Positions 33,939 to 41,512 of a stretch of 44,164 bases of DNA are shown piece by piece. Numbering within the stretch: position 1 is the stretch's first letter; each line of letters begins with the position of its first letter. The DNA lies in IMG/VR virus record IMGVR_UViG_3300031957_000056, positions 1 to 44,164 of that record, one strand, 5' to 3'. Both the position numbers and the translations under genes were made by a program. The stretch comes from a virus. The notes under the pieces are model-generated. The model did no database searches, was not told where the DNA came from, and worked only from the letters and a program-made list of their open reading frames with translations.

Positions 33939-34138
33939 GTTTCAATCGTTAACTTAATACCGTTGCCCCCAAACAAACGAACCATCTCGTCTGCTGCGGC
34001 TTCGGCCTCTTCTATTATCTTATCGTCGTCTGTCATAGATGCTAGGTTCAAGGACATTCCAACGAAGTCCATGAGAGCCTTAACTTGCATAGGGTGCATC
34101 TGTCTTAGCCCGAGGCTTGGCATATCTGGTTCTATCAT
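33932..34138 (-). CDS. Small acidic protein downstream of the polymerase
   Basis: The frame opens at 34153, but the ATG at 34138 overlaps the polymerase stop (ATGA) and gives 68 residues. The product is a mostly helical, acidic protein (LRQMHPMQVKALMDFVGMSL and DDKIIEEAEAAADEMVRLFG). No family recognised. It is the last gene of the minus-strand replication operon; its stop lies inside the end of the convergent late gene. Confidence 0.65.
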   Translation of the reverse strand: MIEPDMPSLGLRQMHPMQVKALMDFVGMSLNLASMTDDDKIIEEAEAAADEMVRLFGGNGIKLTIETH

Positions 34139-36045
34139 TCTATTTCTCCCCAATCATCTTGGATATCTACGTCAATTTTAGATGGCACCTTGAGCTCTAC
34201 GCCTGTCTCCATGATATTTTTAATTTGTTCCGCTTGCTCTGTGCCATCTATGTTAAAGCATAACTCATCATGGACCGTGAGCATAGGAGTATGTCCCGCG
34301 TTGTAGCAATCAAGCATCGCTTTTTTAGTCTGGTCTGCTGCCGATCCTTGGATCAATCTGTTTAACGCCTTGTAAGTAAACGCTCTTCTGATCCCCGTGC
34401 CGTTGATCCCTGCATATTCTGTCAGGGCTTCGTCGTAGGGTAGAGGTTTGCCTGCACCAAACTTGGTGGGTTCCCAGAGATGAAACCGGCACTTGCGGCC
34501 CAAGAGTGTACGGATCTGCCCGTTGCCAGCGGCTCGTCGAGACGCCATCTCGGCTAGGGCTTTAACAAACGGCACCTTGTTACGGTGCTGGGACAGAAGT
34601 TCTTTTGCCGTCTCTGGCTCCACATCTATCTGGTCTGCCAGTTTACCCACGCCCATGCCGTACATAATCCCCAGGTTCACGGCCTTTGCTTCCTTACGGG
34701 TGATGCTTGCTAAGTCTGCCACCATCTGGTGCAGGTCTACATCTGAGTTGTTGTACTCATGGACGATTTCATCAAGCAGGTCTTGGCGTGGCATGTCCCC
34801 AACGCTGGCCGCAAAGTGCACCAAGAGCCTTGGTTCTTGGCTCGAGTAATCGAACGACCCCCACTTGTAGCCCTCGTCTGGTACAAACAAACCACGGATT
34901 AACTTCTTGATGTCCTTGTCCCTTGCAGGAATCTGCTGGAGGTTTGGGTTTGACGATGAGAACCTGCCCGTGACAGTGCCTCCCTCGTCCCTTCTGGTAG
35001 AGTGCAACTCGGTGTGAATACGTCCGTTGTGCTCGTGCCGCAGGATGCTATCGATAAATGTAGAGTCAGCCTTGTCGAACTCACGGAGCTTGACTAACTG
35101 CTGGCAGATCTCGGACGGGTGGCTGTTGAGCCATGCCTTGGTAAACGATACAGCACCCTTCTCGGTCCTTGGGTAGTTCAGTCCTAGCTTGTCAAACATC
35201 TTGGCTATCGAGGCAGACGCCCAGATATCTACGTCTAATCCTGATGTCGTCTTTATAGACTGACGCAGTTCCTTGGTCTTTGCACGAATGGACTTCTTGT
35301 TCTTATCCGCTTTGTCCAAGTCCACCCGCACTCCCTTGGTTCTCATGTCTAGCAAGCAGGGTATTAGGTCAGTCTCTATGCCCCATATGCCCCACAGTTC
35401 TTGGTCTTCAAGTTCAACCTTCAACGCTTGCCACAGCTTGAGCGTAGCTACAGCATCGCGCTCGGCGTAGGCTCCCACATACATAGGAGGAAGTTGCCAC
35501 ATCTCTGCCTTGGGATCGATGCCCCATGCCTTGGCCGCAGCCTTCAACAACTTCTCGTCCTTGCGGATTCCAGCGTAGTCTCGAGCCATAGCGTCAAGGC
35601 CAAAGGACCAACGGTTCTCGTCCACCAATGCACCAGTAATCATAGTGTCAATGATCTTGCCTTTGATCTCTACGCCCTCTGCCCGCATCCAGCCCGCATC
35701 ATACGTTGCATTGTGCATGATCACATGCATGTCAGGCACGTCCATCTGTTGGCCCAACCACCGCATGGCTATCTTGGCATCCAAGTTGTGGCCGTTCTCG
35801 TGTCGAATCGGGAAGTACCCTTGGTATTCTCCAGCCGCAACAGCGATGCCTATGATATGTCCGTCCTTGCGTGACCAACCTGGGCCCAAGGTCTTGATGT
35901 TCGGATCCTTAGTTTCAAGGTCTACAGCCACCTCTTTGTACCCTGTTAGATCAGGGAACTCCGTGGGTATATTCCAGTCTTTATCCACCAGGTTCAACTC
36001 TCCCTTGAACTCATGGTGCAAATCGCTACCAAACAAACTAGCCAT
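34135..36045 (-). CDS. DNA polymerase, family A, with 3'-5' exonuclease
   Basis: The phage replicase, 636 residues. Exonuclease motifs: VDLETKD (Asp42, Glu44), HNATYDAGWM (Asp116), YAERD (Tyr193, Asp197). Polymerase motif A is SFDYSSQEPRLL (Asp399, Glu404), with SS-Q-E-P in place of the usual SQIELR. Motif B is RKEAKAVNLGIMYG (Arg450, Lys454, Leu458, Tyr462), and motif C is VHDE (591-594). Leu458 is at the place of E. coli Phe762. There is no 5'-3' exonuclease domain, as is common in phages, and no DnaJ insert. The ATG overlaps the upstream gene by 8 bases. Confidence 0.95.
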   Translation of the reverse strand: MASLFGSDLHHEFKGELNLVDKDWNIPTEFPDLTGYKEVAVDLETKDPNIKTLGPGWSRKDGHIIGIAVAAGEYQGYFPIRHENGHNLDAKIAMRWLGQQMDVPDMHVIMHNATYDAGWMRAEGVEIKGKIIDTMITGALVDENRWSFGLDAMARDYAGIRKDEKLLKAAAKAWGIDPKAEMWQLPPMYVGAYAERDAVATLKLWQALKVELEDQELWGIWGIETDLIPCLLDMRTKGVRVDLDKADKNKKSIRAKTKELRQSIKTTSGLDVDIWASASIAKMFDKLGLNYPRTEKGAVSFTKAWLNSHPSEICQQLVKLREFDKADSTFIDSILRHEHNGRIHTELHSTRRDEGGTVTGRFSSSNPNLQQIPARDKDIKKLIRGLFVPDEGYKWGSFDYSSQEPRLLVHFAASVGDMPRQDLLDEIVHEYNNSDVDLHQMVADLASITRKEAKAVNLGIMYGMGVGKLADQIDVEPETAKELLSQHRNKVPFVKALAEMASRRAAGNGQIRTLLGRKCRFHLWEPTKFGAGKPLPYDEALTEYAGINGTGIRRAFTYKALNRLIQGSAADQTKKAMLDCYNAGHTPMLTVHDELCFNIDGTEQAEQIKNIMETGVELKVPSKIDVDIQDDWGEIE

Positions 36046-36406
36046 CCTTTTTATTCATCTTTCTTTTTACTGCTTCGACTTCTCTCAGCGTGTCGATGTC
36101 TATGCCAAGATTGTCTAGTTCTTCGCTTTTTCCAGAGAACTCTCCTCCAAGAGCGGAATAACCAACTTTATCCAGCCACGAGTCCTCATGGCTTATGGTT
36201 TGTAAAAGACGGGCCGTCTTCACCCAGTCCATCATTAGGATAACATGTTGCTCCGTCAGGTAGCCGTGGCTTAATAAAGCCCCATTCATTATGACGTTCC
36301 ATCCATTGGCAATGCGGCTGTGGTTTTCAAACGCATCGCCGTAGTCCTTGGCGCGTTGTCCATTGATAAGTTCTTTTGACTTATCTAAAATTTCATCACG
36401 TTTCAT
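36038..36406 (-). CDS. DUF6378-like protein
   Basis: A 122-residue helical protein with ELINGQRAKDYGDAFENHSR, a middle (LTEQHVILMMDWVKTARLLQ) and DSWLDKVGYSALGGE. This fits the phage family I recall as DUF6378, whose pattern (DRxxDYG, VxxMMxLxKxAR, DxxxDxxGYaAL) is visible. The family is of unknown function; a link to nucleotide-pool enzymes has been suggested to me by its fold-like pattern but is not established. It lies between the SleB-like gene and the polymerase gene. Confidence 0.8.
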   Translation of the reverse strand: MKRDEILDKSKELINGQRAKDYGDAFENHSRIANGWNVIMNGALLSHGYLTEQHVILMMDWVKTARLLQTISHEDSWLDKVGYSALGGEFSGKSEELDNLGIDIDTLREVEAVKRKMNKKDG

Positions 36407-36840
36407 TTTGTAGTCTCCAGTTTATTAGGTCGCCTCTTCGGGCGAAGGCTGCTCTCTAGTGGTCTTGGTCGATTGTAAGAATAGAATACATGCTGATCTA
36501 TCCGCACTATCCTATATAACTTTCTACGCCACACCGGACGCACTCTTGTAGTGTGGTAGTGGTCCGCGTCACTGTAAGGTAAGATCCCATGATCCTCGAT
36601 GATCTGCTTTGCTAAACTCCTAGAGTTCTGCCACGCATCTTGGTCCTTGGTGTTTGGTACTTTTCCATTCCTTACAAACGAAAACTGTTGGTCCTCCATG
36701 ACCACGCCACATACGGACGAGGGCCATCGCTTAGACTCCACTCTGTTTATTATAACCCTCGCAACCATAAGCTGGGCTTGTCGGGATTCTCCTCGCGCTT
36801 CATGGTATAAAGCCAACGCGAGACACATTGATGCTATCAT
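36403..36840 (-). CDS. SleB-like cell wall hydrolase
   Basis: A 145-residue protein of the Hydrolase_2 (SleB) type, which cuts peptidoglycan. The start LALALYHEARGE contains the expected catalytic Glu14. VARVIINRVESKRWPSSVCG, then DQQFSFVRNG, a HYHTTRVRPVWRRKLYRIVR, and DQHVFY follow the family pattern. No signal peptide is visible. The C-terminus is basic (SLRPKRRPNKLETTK). Being in the early minus-strand operon, away from the late lysis cassette, is unusual. ATGA overlaps on both sides. Confidence 0.88.
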   Translation of the reverse strand: MIASMCLALALYHEARGESRQAQLMVARVIINRVESKRWPSSVCGVVMEDQQFSFVRNGKVPNTKDQDAWQNSRSLAKQIIEDHGILPYSDADHYHTTRVRPVWRRKLYRIVRIDQHVFYSYNRPRPLESSLRPKRRPNKLETTK

Positions 36841-38369
36841 TATATTGTGTACCTGTATTTGTTGTCCGATTGTAGGATGTAAAGCCTATGTCTGGCCCTT
36901 GTTACTCCAACGTAGAACGCTCGATGTTCATCGTCTTGGTGCTTTGACTCGACACATGCTTTGGTCGAGGCCGTGTAAACTACGCAGTTGTCATCCTCGC
37001 CACCTTTCATAGCGTGGAACGTAGATATCTTAATCCTTGGCGGAGACAGAAGGTCCTCGCCCCTCCGTTCTATTGCCGCAATGTACCGACGCATGCTCTC
37101 CGATACTTTCAATACGTCATAGGCCGCGTAGTTTGCACCACGCAGAAGTCCGTAGTCCGCCATCAACGTGTCCATGCCCACTTCTGCATCAGGTGCCAGA
37201 GCGTCCAGTAATTTAGTAGCCCCACGTTTTACAACAGCGTCTTTTCCCTGCTTGGGTAACCCAGAGTACAGTTTCTTGATACGATCCACCCCAAGCTTCT
37301 TATCCTGGCACAACTCGTCCCAAGCCATAATGTTTTCTACCAACTTCTCAGATATACTGGGTCTGCCCTTGACCGAATACTTAAACCCTGTGTTAGAAAA
37401 CCACTTCGCCAACTCTCGAACGTAGGTGTTTGTACGCGCCATCACGGTCCATGATCCCTCGGTAAAAGGAATACTGTCCATATGTTGAACGTACTCTACC
37501 TCTCCTGTTTCCTCTCGAGGTAAAAATGTTTTAGAAGCACGGTCCTTGATCCTCTGAACAATACCCCTCGCCAACCGGTGTACGTCATGTGGTATGCGGT
37601 ATGACTGCGTTAACACCTCTACATCTGTGGAGGAATCAACAAACAATTTAACATCCACCCCTGTCCAACGGTGCACGGCTTGGTCATCGTCTCCCGCAAT
37701 AATTGTTTTGTCGGAGAACTCAGCCAGTTTCTCGGCCATCTTCCACTGCAACGGTGTGAAGTCTTGAGCCTCATCAATAAACAGATAGTCCAAGTGGGGC
37801 GGCTCCCCGATCTCGATGTACTTCTCAATCATATCAACGAAGTCATACTTATTTAAAGTTCTTTTATACTCATCAATCTGCTTGGCTACCTGCGTTAATT
37901 TAAACGAATGCAGATCTCGGTCGGCTGTTTGATTAAACTCCTTGTTCAATGAAATCATACGATACCGAGAACGAATAATCATCTGTAGGTACTGAGCTCC
38001 TGATCCACCAATCGTAGGAAGAGTTATCCCATCATCGATGCTGGTCTTGTCTTCCCCCTCAAAATTTAATCCTACGGCCTCTCCAATAACTTTATAGTCT
38101 GCCATCTGCATTACGTCTTGCGACTGCAAGCCTAGCCCGTTGTACCCAAACGAGTGGCTCGTTCTCATAAACGGAAAGTCTGAAGGCTCTAATGAGAACT
38201 CCGCACATGATCGAGTAACCATCTCTTCAATAGCCTTACGAGTAAACGATATCACCCCGATGCGTGACGGGTGCGTCCCTAATTCCAATGCGGCTTTGAT
38301 CTCTTGAATCAAACGATAGGTCTTACCGCAACCTGGAGGTCCCAGTATAAGTTTAGAGTTGGGGATCAT
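36840..38369 (-). CDS. UvrD/Rep-like superfamily 1 helicase
   Basis: A 509-residue ATP-dependent 3'-5' DNA helicase for replication or repair. Motifs: Walker A LGPPGCGKT (Gly10 to Thr17), Walker B LFIDEAQD, motif III GDDDQAVHRW, motif IV-like QSYRIP, motif V KISTFHAMKGGEDD and motif VI FYVGVTRARHRLYI. Several accessory domains of full-length UvrD are shortened, as in other phage helicases. It follows the AlpA-like gene with a 4-base overlap and precedes the SleB-like gene. Confidence 0.92.
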   Translation of the reverse strand: MIPNSKLILGPPGCGKTYRLIQEIKAALELGTHPSRIGVISFTRKAIEEMVTRSCAEFSLEPSDFPFMRTSHSFGYNGLGLQSQDVMQMADYKVIGEAVGLNFEGEDKTSIDDGITLPTIGGSGAQYLQMIIRSRYRMISLNKEFNQTADRDLHSFKLTQVAKQIDEYKRTLNKYDFVDMIEKYIEIGEPPHLDYLFIDEAQDFTPLQWKMAEKLAEFSDKTIIAGDDDQAVHRWTGVDVKLFVDSSTDVEVLTQSYRIPHDVHRLARGIVQRIKDRASKTFLPREETGEVEYVQHMDSIPFTEGSWTVMARTNTYVRELAKWFSNTGFKYSVKGRPSISEKLVENIMAWDELCQDKKLGVDRIKKLYSGLPKQGKDAVVKRGATKLLDALAPDAEVGMDTLMADYGLLRGANYAAYDVLKVSESMRRYIAAIERRGEDLLSPPRIKISTFHAMKGGEDDNCVVYTASTKACVESKHQDDEHRAFYVGVTRARHRLYILQSDNKYRYTI

Positions 38370-38581
38370 AGGTCCTTGCCCCTTGGTCTGGAGTTCACCC
38401 AGTCTTCAATCTCCGTCAGTACCCAGCGGCTAGACGAACGCTTGTTGTTCTCGTCCCCCAGTACAATCGGCTGCGGGAAGTCTGCCTTCTGAGCCGACAG
38501 TTTATAAATGTATGACTTGGATACACCCAACATACGGGCAACCTCTCCTACACGGAGAAGTCTATTAGAAGGGTATGTCAT
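38366..38581 (-). CDS. AlpA/MerR-like HTH regulator
   Basis: A 71-residue protein with a winged HTH of the AlpA/excisionase type (LRVGEVARMLGVSKSYIYKL, then DFPQPIVLGD, SSSRWVLTEIEDWVNSR). It could act as a transcription regulator of the early operon or as an architectural protein; no integrase exists nearby for an excisionase role. GTAGGAGAGG lies inside the coding region; the start at 38581 overlaps the primase gene by 17 bases. Confidence 0.83.
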   Translation of the reverse strand: MTYPSNRLLRVGEVARMLGVSKSYIYKLSAQKADFPQPIVLGDENNKRSSSRWVLTEIEDWVNSRPRGKDL

Positions 38582-40088
38582 CGCTCATCTCCTTAATTGG
38601 TAATTCAATTTTGTTTTCTTCAAACGAGGGTATGTACCAGCAACGAATTGTGCTTTTGGTATTGTCTGATCTCCGAATGTTCTGGTGAACTGAATCTCCC
38701 CCTAAATCTCTGATCATCTGGATCAAGTGTCCACGGTTATCTACCTTAAACCTGCGGTGGTGCAGGAAATCGATCAAGCCCTCTAGTTTAAACTTGGTTG
38801 TGTTGCCATCGGTCCACGGCTTGCCCATCTCTAGTTCTTCTGGAGCCATGGCTCTAATCTGGCTGGTGCAGTATGATTGAAGGTGATCTTTAAACTGGCC
38901 TTTGATCGTGGCTTCTTCTGGCACGTCTAGGTATGTAGCAGACTGCATCATAAGGTTGATCATAACCTGCCACTTCTGAGGTTTAACTGTCGGAGGCATA
39001 ATATTCATCTGCTCCATGCAAGCACGTTGCCATAGCACTTGGTTCTGCAACTGCTCTGTTGTTAGTTGGATCCGAGAACCATCCACGTCCATGAAATAAA
39101 CACGGGGCTCTGACAAGAGTATTGTCAGGCCCCCGACCACTGGTGCATCAGGTGCATCCTTGCCAATCCCAAACTTACGAACCGCACACAGCACTGGATC
39201 ACAGTAACTTTTAAACGGTTCGTCTTTGCAGGTGTAGCCCCAGTCCTTTTTGGTCAGGGACTTTCTGAGGTTCAATACCTCATGTGAAGGCAAAGGCTCT
39301 GAGCATAAGGTTCGGTTGTCCTCCTCCAACCTGGCCTCCCAGTCGTCGTTAAATTTTAGCTTGTTGTACACACCGCACATAAACATAGTCTTGTTGCGCT
39401 CGTCCGTGATCGGACCTTCGGCAAACAAATGTTCCAAGCACGGAGGACCATCGGTGAAATGCTTGCGCTCCCCTGCAAACTTCATCCCTTCAAGATCCGC
39501 TAACGAAACACGCGCCTTGTCTACCGCATCAAGGAACTCGTCTAGTTCTAACGCTTCCGTCTTTTTGTTAAAGCAATACCTCTGGGTCAGTTCGGCTTTG
39601 AAGTAAGGCATGTTAATAAAGTTGCCCACATCTCCACGCTCGGCAATAATCGTATCCTGCTTGGGGAATATCTCGCAGCCACTGTGGCCCAGCGCAATCG
39701 ACATCTCTGATAAGTAATCTCTAATCTGTGCTGCTGATTCCCAATCCTTCATAAATAAATAAAGATGAGCACCTCCCGACTTGGACCGGCAGTGCATCAA
39801 CGGCAACTTCATCTTTTGTATCTTAGCTTGGAGTTCGTCGTGGTTAAGATCATATACATCTATATCCAAGCATCCAAACTGACACTGGTTCTCATCGTTG
39901 ATTGGAATAGCACCAACACCTTGGTCCCCATCAATGTGCGCTTGTACAAGTTCCTCGGTCAACGGCTCTCGGATTATTCGGCTCTGTGATTCGGCCTTTC
40001 CATTACGCCCTACGCGACCAACGATTGTTGTACCATGTGCGTTTCTCGCCCCTGCAAAGGTGGCAAGTAGTCTCTTTGCTTGTGACAT
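38565..40088 (-). CDS. Archaeo-eukaryotic-type primase (TOTE-like AEP)
   Basis: A 507-residue protein with an AEP catalytic core. It has FGCLDIDVYD (Asp75, Asp77: metal-binding DxD), the sugar-binding motif SKSGGAHLYLFM (Ser104, His108), and a third motif near GCEIFPKQDTI, followed by GDVGNFINMPYF. The C-terminal half is helical and may bind DNA or partner proteins. It would make primers for the family A polymerase. The C-terminus EMSDDIPF is an SSB-like tail. AGGGAG lies before the ATG; a terminator separates it from the upstream SSB-like gene. Confidence 0.85.
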   Translation of the reverse strand: MSQAKRLLATFAGARNAHGTTIVGRVGRNGKAESQSRIIREPLTEELVQAHIDGDQGVGAIPINDENQCQFGCLDIDVYDLNHDELQAKIQKMKLPLMHCRSKSGGAHLYLFMKDWESAAQIRDYLSEMSIALGHSGCEIFPKQDTIIAERGDVGNFINMPYFKAELTQRYCFNKKTEALELDEFLDAVDKARVSLADLEGMKFAGERKHFTDGPPCLEHLFAEGPITDERNKTMFMCGVYNKLKFNDDWEARLEEDNRTLCSEPLPSHEVLNLRKSLTKKDWGYTCKDEPFKSYCDPVLCAVRKFGIGKDAPDAPVVGGLTILLSEPRVYFMDVDGSRIQLTTEQLQNQVLWQRACMEQMNIMPPTVKPQKWQVMINLMMQSATYLDVPEEATIKGQFKDHLQSYCTSQIRAMAPEELEMGKPWTDGNTTKFKLEGLIDFLHHRRFKVDNRGHLIQMIRDLGGDSVHQNIRRSDNTKSTIRCWYIPSFEENKIELPIKEMSDDIPF

Positions 40089-40108
40089 TTACTGCTCCCT
40101 TAGTGATT

Positions 40109-40142
40109 AAAAAGGGACGCACCGTGTCCAAAAGTGCGTCCC
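40109..40142 (-). terminator. Minus-strand terminator between SSB-like and primase genes
   Basis: Read on the minus strand, GGGACGCAC pairs with GTGCGTCCC (perfect 9-bp stem, 11-base loop) and is followed at once by TTTTTAATC. This is a good intrinsic terminator inside the operon, likely leaky, giving more SSB-like protein than primase. Confidence 0.85.
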
Positions 40143-40157
40143 CCTCAAAGCTGCAAC

Positions 40158-40952
40158 CTAAAACGGGATGTCATCATCCACAGGTTTGGAGTCGGAAGTG
40201 GAGCTACCTTCCTCCGATACAGCCTTTGCTTCACCTGCGGCCACACTATCACGAAACGCTTTGGCCTCAAGCATAAGATCACGGTCCTCGATCAAGCCAA
40301 GCTTCTCAATCGAAAAGTTAAACCATGATCCTTGGTCATTGCTTTCTTCAACAGTAGTAAACTTCCACTGTGTAGCAAACAAAGGTGGTGTGATCATTGC
40401 ACCAGTCTTCGGGTGCTTGATCTTTTGCATGGCAATCTGAGTTTTCCAACGTCGGCTAACCTTCAGTTGTGTAGACTTCATGTCAATCACAACAGGCTGG
40501 CTGATGCCATCCTCGTCAATTACCAAGCAGTAATGTTGATCCGACTTCACCAACTCGTTGCCTGTGGGCAGGATCTCTTTTGAACCCTGACGCTCAGTTC
40601 GTTGAAGAACAGGATCTGTTGGCGGTATTTCACCACGGAACCCACCACCTTGATCGCGTGGTGTGAACTCAAGATACTTAGTAGTCTGGTAGCAAGGGAT
40701 TACAGTGAGCCCCTTGTCCCCACCAAAGAACTGACCAGTGACAGTATTAAACATGTCCCCCTGCTCTGCGCCCTCGATGTAGTCAGCCTCACGTTTCTTC
40801 AACTGAGGTGACATCGCCTGGAGTACACGGACGAACGGGATTTGCATCTCGCTGCTGTCAAATGATGCGCCTTCACCCGCGAACTCTAGGATGTCGTCCA
40901 TGACGTCCGTTGCTACTGCTGTTTCTTTTGCTTTTGCTACTGCGTTAGCCAT
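40158..40952 (-). CDS. Putative single-stranded DNA-binding protein
   Basis: A 264-residue protein, second gene of the minus operon. The segment QIPFVRVLQAMSPQLKKREA and the beta-rich middle (KGLTVIPCYQTTKYLEFTPR, HYCLVIDEDGISQPVVIDMK) fit a phage SSB-type OB-fold protein. The disordered, Ser/Asp-rich C-terminus ends VDDDIPF, the same tip as bacterial SSB, where it recruits replication and repair partners. Terminator directly after the gene supports high dosage. The family assignment is tentative. Confidence 0.68.
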   Translation of the reverse strand: MANAVAKAKETAVATDVMDDILEFAGEGASFDSSEMQIPFVRVLQAMSPQLKKREADYIEGAEQGDMFNTVTGQFFGGDKGLTVIPCYQTTKYLEFTPRDQGGGFRGEIPPTDPVLQRTERQGSKEILPTGNELVKSDQHYCLVIDEDGISQPVVIDMKSTQLKVSRRWKTQIAMQKIKHPKTGAMITPPLFATQWKFTTVEESNDQGSWFNFSIEKLGLIEDRDLMLEAKAFRDSVAAGEAKAVSEEGSSTSDSKPVDDDIPF

Positions 40953-41512
40953 TATGCTTTCCTCTTTATCTGTGCTGTGTTGTTTACAAATGCCCCGAAC
41001 ATATCGAGATCGATTGGTTTACCATCCGTGATGCGCTCCTTAACGAACGCCTTCAATGTAGATGGATGTACATGGGTCTTGGTACTTGGATCAAACCCCC
41101 GATCCTTGAGCAGTCCGACCACGTCACCTGCTTGATTGTCTTGGCCCTTACCGAAAGACAAGACCACATCATTCTTGATGATGTCATCCAAATGGTTTTC
41201 GCGTAGCCAAGTGTATGCCTCGTCTCTCCGATCAACGGGGATCGATGCGCTAACAACCATCCTTCGTTCCACGGTAAGCCCGTCAACATCCAAACGCTCT
41301 ACACCCATCTCGTCCATGAGAGCTGGTATGTTTTCCACAGAGAGTTTGTGCTTCTCTTGTTTTAATGATTTAAGATGTGTCTCCGCATCAGCAATCTGAT
41401 CTTCTACTCCACGGAGTGTACGAACCAGTTGGCTAAGTTGCTTGCCGGTTCCTACGTCAATGTTCGATACGGCACCTGCCTCATCGAATAAGTCTTCAAA
41501 GATATCGTCCAT
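40952..41512 (-). CDS. Early protein with coiled coil, function unknown
   Basis: A 186-residue protein, first gene of the minus operon. An acidic start (MDDIFEDLFDEAG) leads to a coiled coil (VRTLRGVEDQIADAETHLKS), then a region with VERLDVDGLTVERRMVVSAS and SIPVDRRDEAYTWLRENHLD. Similar proteins sit next to SSB-like genes in marine podoviruses. A role as a replication or recombination accessory is likely only by position. Its stop overlaps the SSB-like start. Confidence 0.72.
   Translation of the reverse strand: MDDIFEDLFDEAGAVSNIDVGTGKQLSQLVRTLRGVEDQIADAETHLKSLKQEKHKLSVENIPALMDEMGVERLDVDGLTVERRMVVSASIPVDRRDEAYTWLRENHLDDIIKNDVVLSFGKGQDNQAGDVVGLLKDRGFDPSTKTHVHPSTLKAFVKERITDGKPIDLDMFGAFVNNTAQIKRKA

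Follow-up and report, generated by a model that had tools for sequence, protein, structure and literature searches.

The AEP-type primase of this phage and the SSB-like protein encoded next to it end in the same short peptide, and this shared tip is real and conserved. Across lineages, sequence comparison indicates that the tips of these two unrelated proteins tend to change together, which suggests a shared partner, and the tips are probably functional. We hypothesize, with a probability of about 60%, that both would be docking peptides for one pocket on a phage-encoded replication protein, serving a primase/SSB hand-over at the fork. The peptide binding, the phage origin of the pocket and the hand-over role are what we infer from the patterns described below.

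Two adjacent replication genes share a C-terminal tip

In the window (the whole 44,164-nucleotide stretch of DNA that we analysed), a minus-strand operon carries, in order, the genes for a gp33-like protein (DUF7307), the gp34-like SSB-like protein, the AEP primase, an AlpA-like HTH protein, a UvrD-like helicase, a cell-wall hydrolase, a DUF6378 protein and a family A polymerase, whose nearest solved chains are Pol I-type polymerases (Table 1). The primase and the SSB-like protein both end in an acidic run followed by a terminal I-P-F, the form of the SSB-Ct peptide, and the ORFs, coordinates and endings given in the original prediction were exact. No third tip-bearing protein was found among the window ORFs of at least 60 aa: only these two end in PF or [DE][ILV]P-x, and the other ORFs picked up by a loose scan of protein ends have unrelated C-termini. 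As a separate observation, the UvrD-like helicases of the window and its relatives have a conserved C-terminus of the form aromatic-X-[IL] (YTI, FRL, YTL, YQL), which may serve as a further docking end or may only be the final strand of the fold.

Table 1. Genes and tip codons of the replication module in the window.
Feature	Position	Strand	Remarks
AEP-type primase	38565..40088	-	507 aa, ends SDDIPF (...KEMSDDIPF)
Codons of primase tip S-D-D-I-P-F	38568..38585	-	Read from sequence
SSB-like protein, Pam3 gp34 family	40158..40952	-	264 aa, ends VDDDIPF (...DSKPVDDDIPF)
Codons of SSB-like tip V-D-D-D-I-P-F	40161..40181	-	Read from sequence
AlpA-like HTH protein	38366..38581	-	Pfam Phage_AlpA 1.1e-9; ATG (38581) within primase tip codons
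UvrD-like helicase	36840..38369	-	Pfam UvrD-helicase 4.8e-25; candidate tip partner
Family A DNA polymerase	34135..36045	-	Pfam DNA_pol_A 3.2e-60; candidate tip partner by T7 analogy
Pam3 gp33-like protein (DUF7307)	40952..41512	-	Pfam PF23984 9.3e-28; same operon, upstream of SSB-like gene
Cell wall hydrolase-like gene	36403-36840		PF07486; situated within replication module

Identity of the two tip-bearing proteins

The assignment of the first protein as an AEP primase is well supported by sequence and by its structure model, and primer synthesis is predicted. It matches Pfam AEP-TOTE (PF22548, 2.7e-14, above cut-off) and PHROG 21866, primase (2.9e-94), and its family profile resembles the Marinitoga CAPP sequence (7.7e-14). 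In Foldseek, the AF2 model matches the Marinitoga CAPP Prim-Pol 7nqd (2.2e-11) and also the cyanophage S-2L PrimPol (8e-5). AEP motifs I (hhhDhD) and II (sxH) are both present, with D75, D77, S104, G106 and H108 invariant in 67 sequences.

The SSB-like identity of the gp34-family protein is only plausible, and its binding to ssDNA is predicted. The protein matches PF23977 (Pam3_Gp34, 3.9e-67) and PHROG 2402, both families of unknown function; PF23977 is its sole Pfam domain, and the bacterial-type SSB domain PF00436 is absent from the window record. Its AF2 model is strand-rich (pLDDT 81.5), with residues 248-264 below 50, so that the acidic C-terminal tail ending in DDDIPF is disordered in the model. 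Against the PDB the model gave weak matches (E 0.02 and above), in which RPA, Rim1, CST and PrgE occur among unrelated folds; several of these (RPA, Rim1, PrgE) are OB-fold proteins. Viral hits named SSB were also weak, and the family profile found no match among PDB sequences.

Vibrio phage 69E27.1 (L332:7146-7625) encodes a separate small SSB (PHROG 7364) ending in NEPPMDFDDDIPF, identical to the last 13 residues of E. coli SSB, and the corresponding protein of Alteromonas phage ZP6 (L335:5882-6169; PHROG 7364) ends in DFDDDIPF. In these two phages the gp34-like protein ends in AEM or EEFA, and the primase, of the Prim-Pol/PriCT-2 type, lacks a tip. Adenylosuccinate synthetase-like (PurZ-type) genes adjoin the replication module in several phages with this SSB-like family (L170, L332 and L335), which hints at modified-base genomes.

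The tips are conserved, and selection acts on the primase frame

Absence of the tail in close relatives, named beforehand as the observation that would count against the prediction, was looked for and the tail was found to be kept. The motif [DE][IV]PF ends 61/62 non-redundant complete primases from close relatives (the lone exception ends in SSVRLI), and IPF ends 54/54 SSB-like proteins, in which the linker ahead of the tip varies freely. This conservation argues that the shared tips are more than chance, and we rejected a chance origin.

The end of the primase gene overlaps the start of the AlpA-like gene, whose Shine-Dalgarno sequence AAGGAG (38594-38589) and ATG are embedded in the last primase codons; an ATG at this position within the tip codons was present in 47/52 relatives examined. 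In the window clade, residue 4 of the AlpA-like frame is H, P or R and residue 3 is S or Y, while in the primase frame the tip Pro is fixed and the Ile almost fixed, and substitutions in the overlap are mostly silent in the primase frame. Since the second frame varies while the primase Pro is fixed, selection acts on the primase frame. Most other lineages keep a tip with no long overlap between the primase and the next gene. Thus, we rejected the overlapping gene as a full explanation of the primase tip.

The two tips change together between lineages

For viral contigs, we compared the endings of 363 primase/SSB-like pairs, which form 46 clusters at 60% identity. The last two residues were identical within a phage at a frequency of 0.23, versus 0.06 with shuffled partners (p=0.0003), and the terminal residue at 0.42 versus 0.27 (p=0.0017); in an earlier subset of 206 pairs, agreement of the last two residues was 0.39 versus 0.05. 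In 38 further pairs, sampled separately from contigs of bacterial assemblies (26 clusters), the values were 0.44 versus 0.14 (p=0.0002), and the matching persisted with 10 clusters at 40% identity (p=0.004); the smallest of these p-values are the floor of the shuffles, and the clusters are not fully independent by descent. Matched endings within a phage (primase/SSB-like) include IPF/IPF, IV/IV, PY/PY, NY/NY and EF/EF. Examples are ENIV/QDIV in Pelagibacter phage HTVC027P, GSPF/NIPF in DSL-LC04, KAEF/HSEF in Kokobel2, KSEF/SGEF in SH-Ab 15497 and PPFV/IPFA in ct3Et533. The terminal residue is hydrophobic in 85% of the primases and 88% of the SSB-like proteins (cluster-weighted), and both proteins have the T7-type shared tail form, polar or acidic with a hydrophobic last residue.

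The C-termini of UvrD, PolA, gp33-like and SNF2 proteins showed no matching in the same genomes (206-pair subset); with these control proteins unmatched, we rejected a clade-specific bias of protein ends in general. Copying of the tail as DNA, or gene conversion, was also rejected, as codon identity of the tails is practically equal within and between genomes (0.466 and 0.445, respectively). When the distances of four or five protein bodies were removed, the tip-tip partial correlation was 0.34-0.37 (p<=0.001) in partial Mantel tests, which can be liberal. Tree contrasts for terminal F yielded 4 independent contrasts, of which, on average, 2.1 showed agreement of the tips and 0.2 disagreement, a result that is underpowered and not significant; the count of independent changes on the tree points the same way as the matching, with too few changes for significance. 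The matching is weak or missing when clades are taken one at a time (L251 cluster, p=0.14).

Exceptions were also found. Primases of the HTVC023P type end in GKFRT, mostly overlapping the next gene, while the SSB-like protein ends in VPF; in these primases (L166 and similar loci) an MDDDF upstream of GKFRT may be what is left of a former tip. In Nanhaivirus the primase lacks a tip, and the SSB-like protein retains a PF ending. Among relatives of ct3Et533 (L341 cluster), primases often end in EIF, EVF or PF and SSB-like proteins in HF or NAF, so that only the terminal Phe agrees. A scan with the Kokobel2 primase gave no match, and no relative was detected in an initial scan of genome contigs with the HTVC027P primase.

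A docking model and its candidate receptors

Our model proposes that the primase and the SSB-like protein would each bear a flexible C-terminal docking peptide, consisting of a polar or acidic stretch that ends in a hydrophobic residue, in most cases an aromatic one. A pocket of one kind, on a replication protein encoded by the phage, would accept both peptides, so that the SSB-coated single strand and the primase could be joined or swapped at the fork. The peptide of the window lineage happens to equal the bacterial consensus DDIPF.

A more specific form of this model takes the phage family A DNA polymerase as the shared receptor, binding the primase and SSB tails in turn, as in T7. The T7 SSB, gp2.5, has an acidic tail that contacts the T7 polymerase (gp5). 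In the T7 primase-helicase gp4, contact with T7 DNA polymerase likewise requires the terminal Phe of an acidic C-terminal tail (PMC12230644, PMC12593628), so the earlier remark that no primase with such a tip was known is incorrect. The PolA gene of the window lies in the same module. However, once the other proteins are taken into account, PolA divergence does not explain either tip, and members of the SSB-like family also accompany different sets of replication genes and there have endings like EEF (Pbunavirus LMA2, Wifcevirus F13). We treat the polymerase as a tentative and somewhat unlikely receptor.

The same partial correlations extend to the helicases: once the other proteins are included, the divergence of UvrD, PolA and SNF2 adds nothing to either tip, and none of the three has covariation support as a co-evolving receptor. 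The UvrD-like helicase, which the original prediction had put forward as a partner, thus gains no support. In contrast, each tip tracks the body of the other protein beyond that of its own: r=0.22-0.375 for the SSB-like tip with the primase body and r=0.17-0.26 for the primase tip with the SSB-like body. This pattern weakly favours a pocket on the primase or the SSB-like protein over the T7 solution, and it leans weakly towards the primase/SSB pair itself, rather than the polymerase or the helicases, as the receptor. Joint recombination of neighbouring genes can imitate covariation with a receptor, and part of the primase/SSB signal may come from gene adjacency.

Two arrangements within the pair can be considered. 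SSB tails can dock on their own OB folds, and, as another specific form of the docking model, the primase tip might dock on the DNA-binding surface of the SSB-like protein, recruiting the primase to SSB-coated DNA. The tracking of the SSB-like body by the primase tip is what this arrangement would produce; nevertheless, the effect is small and gene adjacency may account for it, and both the OB fold and the ssDNA binding of the SSB-like protein are putative, so we consider it doubtful. Alternatively, the pocket might lie on the primase, by analogy with E. coli DnaG, which has a pocket for the SSB tip that binds the carboxylate of the terminal Phe and the acidic run (PMC5872125); the primase's own tip could also occupy such a pocket. 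Taken further, the tip would be a lineage 'password' common to both proteins and read by the primase pocket, which the primase's own tip would occupy until SSB-coated DNA displaced it. Although we think this elaboration improbable, it would mean, if true, that priming is switched on where phage SSB, and not host SSB, covers the strand.

In some lineages, phage tips depart from the host SSB tip

A different explanation is that both tips imitate the tip of bacterial SSB, so as to capture or block the host proteins ExoI, RecO, PriA, Pol III chi or DnaG. The window-clade tips indeed equal the bacterial consensus D-D-[DE]-I-P-F, and the host SSBs examined mostly end in IPF, LPF or VPF. We read these host tips from the same assemblies as the phage contigs; several are single-cell genomes, which makes the host link better than by binning alone, though it is no proof. 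The SSBs of SAR11 and related cells end in DDDIPF, DDEIPF or DEDIPF, whereas the phage pairs in their assemblies (primase/SSB-like) end in EEAPY/KQPY, PETPY/SEAPY, EEDPY/EEAPY and PKDAF/TDVPY. In a Flavobacterium single cell, the host SSB ends in DDDLPF and the phage pair in EEDIV/TKDII. Both tips have thus left the IPF form together (PY, IV, EF) in the SAR11 assemblies, as they have in HTVC027P and in Acinetobacter and Providencia phages.

The departure of both phage tips from the host form, in many cases jointly, speaks for a pocket encoded by the phage, and on these endings we consider a phage-encoded socket likelier than mimicry of the host SSB tip. Copying of the host tip is in our view an unlikely general explanation, and host docking may occur in the window clade, where the tip coincides with the bacterial form. 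The earlier proposal that both proteins engage the same host or phage partners holds in part: the matched tips suggest a shared partner, while docking on host ExoI, RecO or PriA as the main role is not supported, given the pairs that leave the host form together (PY/PY and DAF/VPY in SAR11 assemblies, ENIV/QDIV in HTVC027P).

It is very unlikely that the tips have no function, the primase tip being a by-product of the overlapping AlpA-like start and the matching a product of shared ancestry alone, for although the overlap is real in the window clade and related phages inherit both genes together, the second-frame residues vary around a fixed primase Pro, most other lineages keep a tip without the overlap, control proteins of the same genomes do not match, and the tip matching persists given the body distances.

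Discussion

The docking model has precedents, and each differs from the system described here. As in T7, a priming enzyme has a flexible C-terminal tail with an aromatic end, and the SSB of the same phage has an acidic tail. Unlike T7, this phage has an AEP primase without a fused helicase, an SSB-like protein of an unrelated family and a Pol I-type polymerase, and the tips change together between lineages. The window clade uses the same class of hexapeptide as the bacterial SSB-Ct hub (DDDIPF). Here, however, the tip occurs on both the primase and the SSB-like protein, and the phage tips of other lineages depart from IPF while host SSBs keep it. Human PrimPol, which binds RPA through C-terminal motifs (PMC5457501), is similarly an AEP primase recruited via C-terminal motifs tied to the SSB of its system; its motifs bind RPA, whereas the phage primase tip resembles the SSB-like protein's own tip. 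Marinitoga CAPP provides the nearest solved fold to the primase catalytic domain, the likeness resting on the fold of that domain in a different genetic context.

Neither SSB-like tips on AEP primases nor matched tip pairs turned up in any report in the open-access library that we searched. Tail docking itself is already known, and what appears to be new is the lineage-specific matching of tips in an AEP-primase system.

SSB tips are usually studied as one near-invariant sequence. The many natural tip variants found here with a matching primase offer a ready test set for the co-evolution of peptide and pocket, and they bear on the ways in which phage replication machinery could stay apart from that of the host. 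Finally, the docking model offers a specific proposal for the way in which AEP primases of phages, those of the abundant SAR11 phages among them, may be brought to single-stranded DNA.
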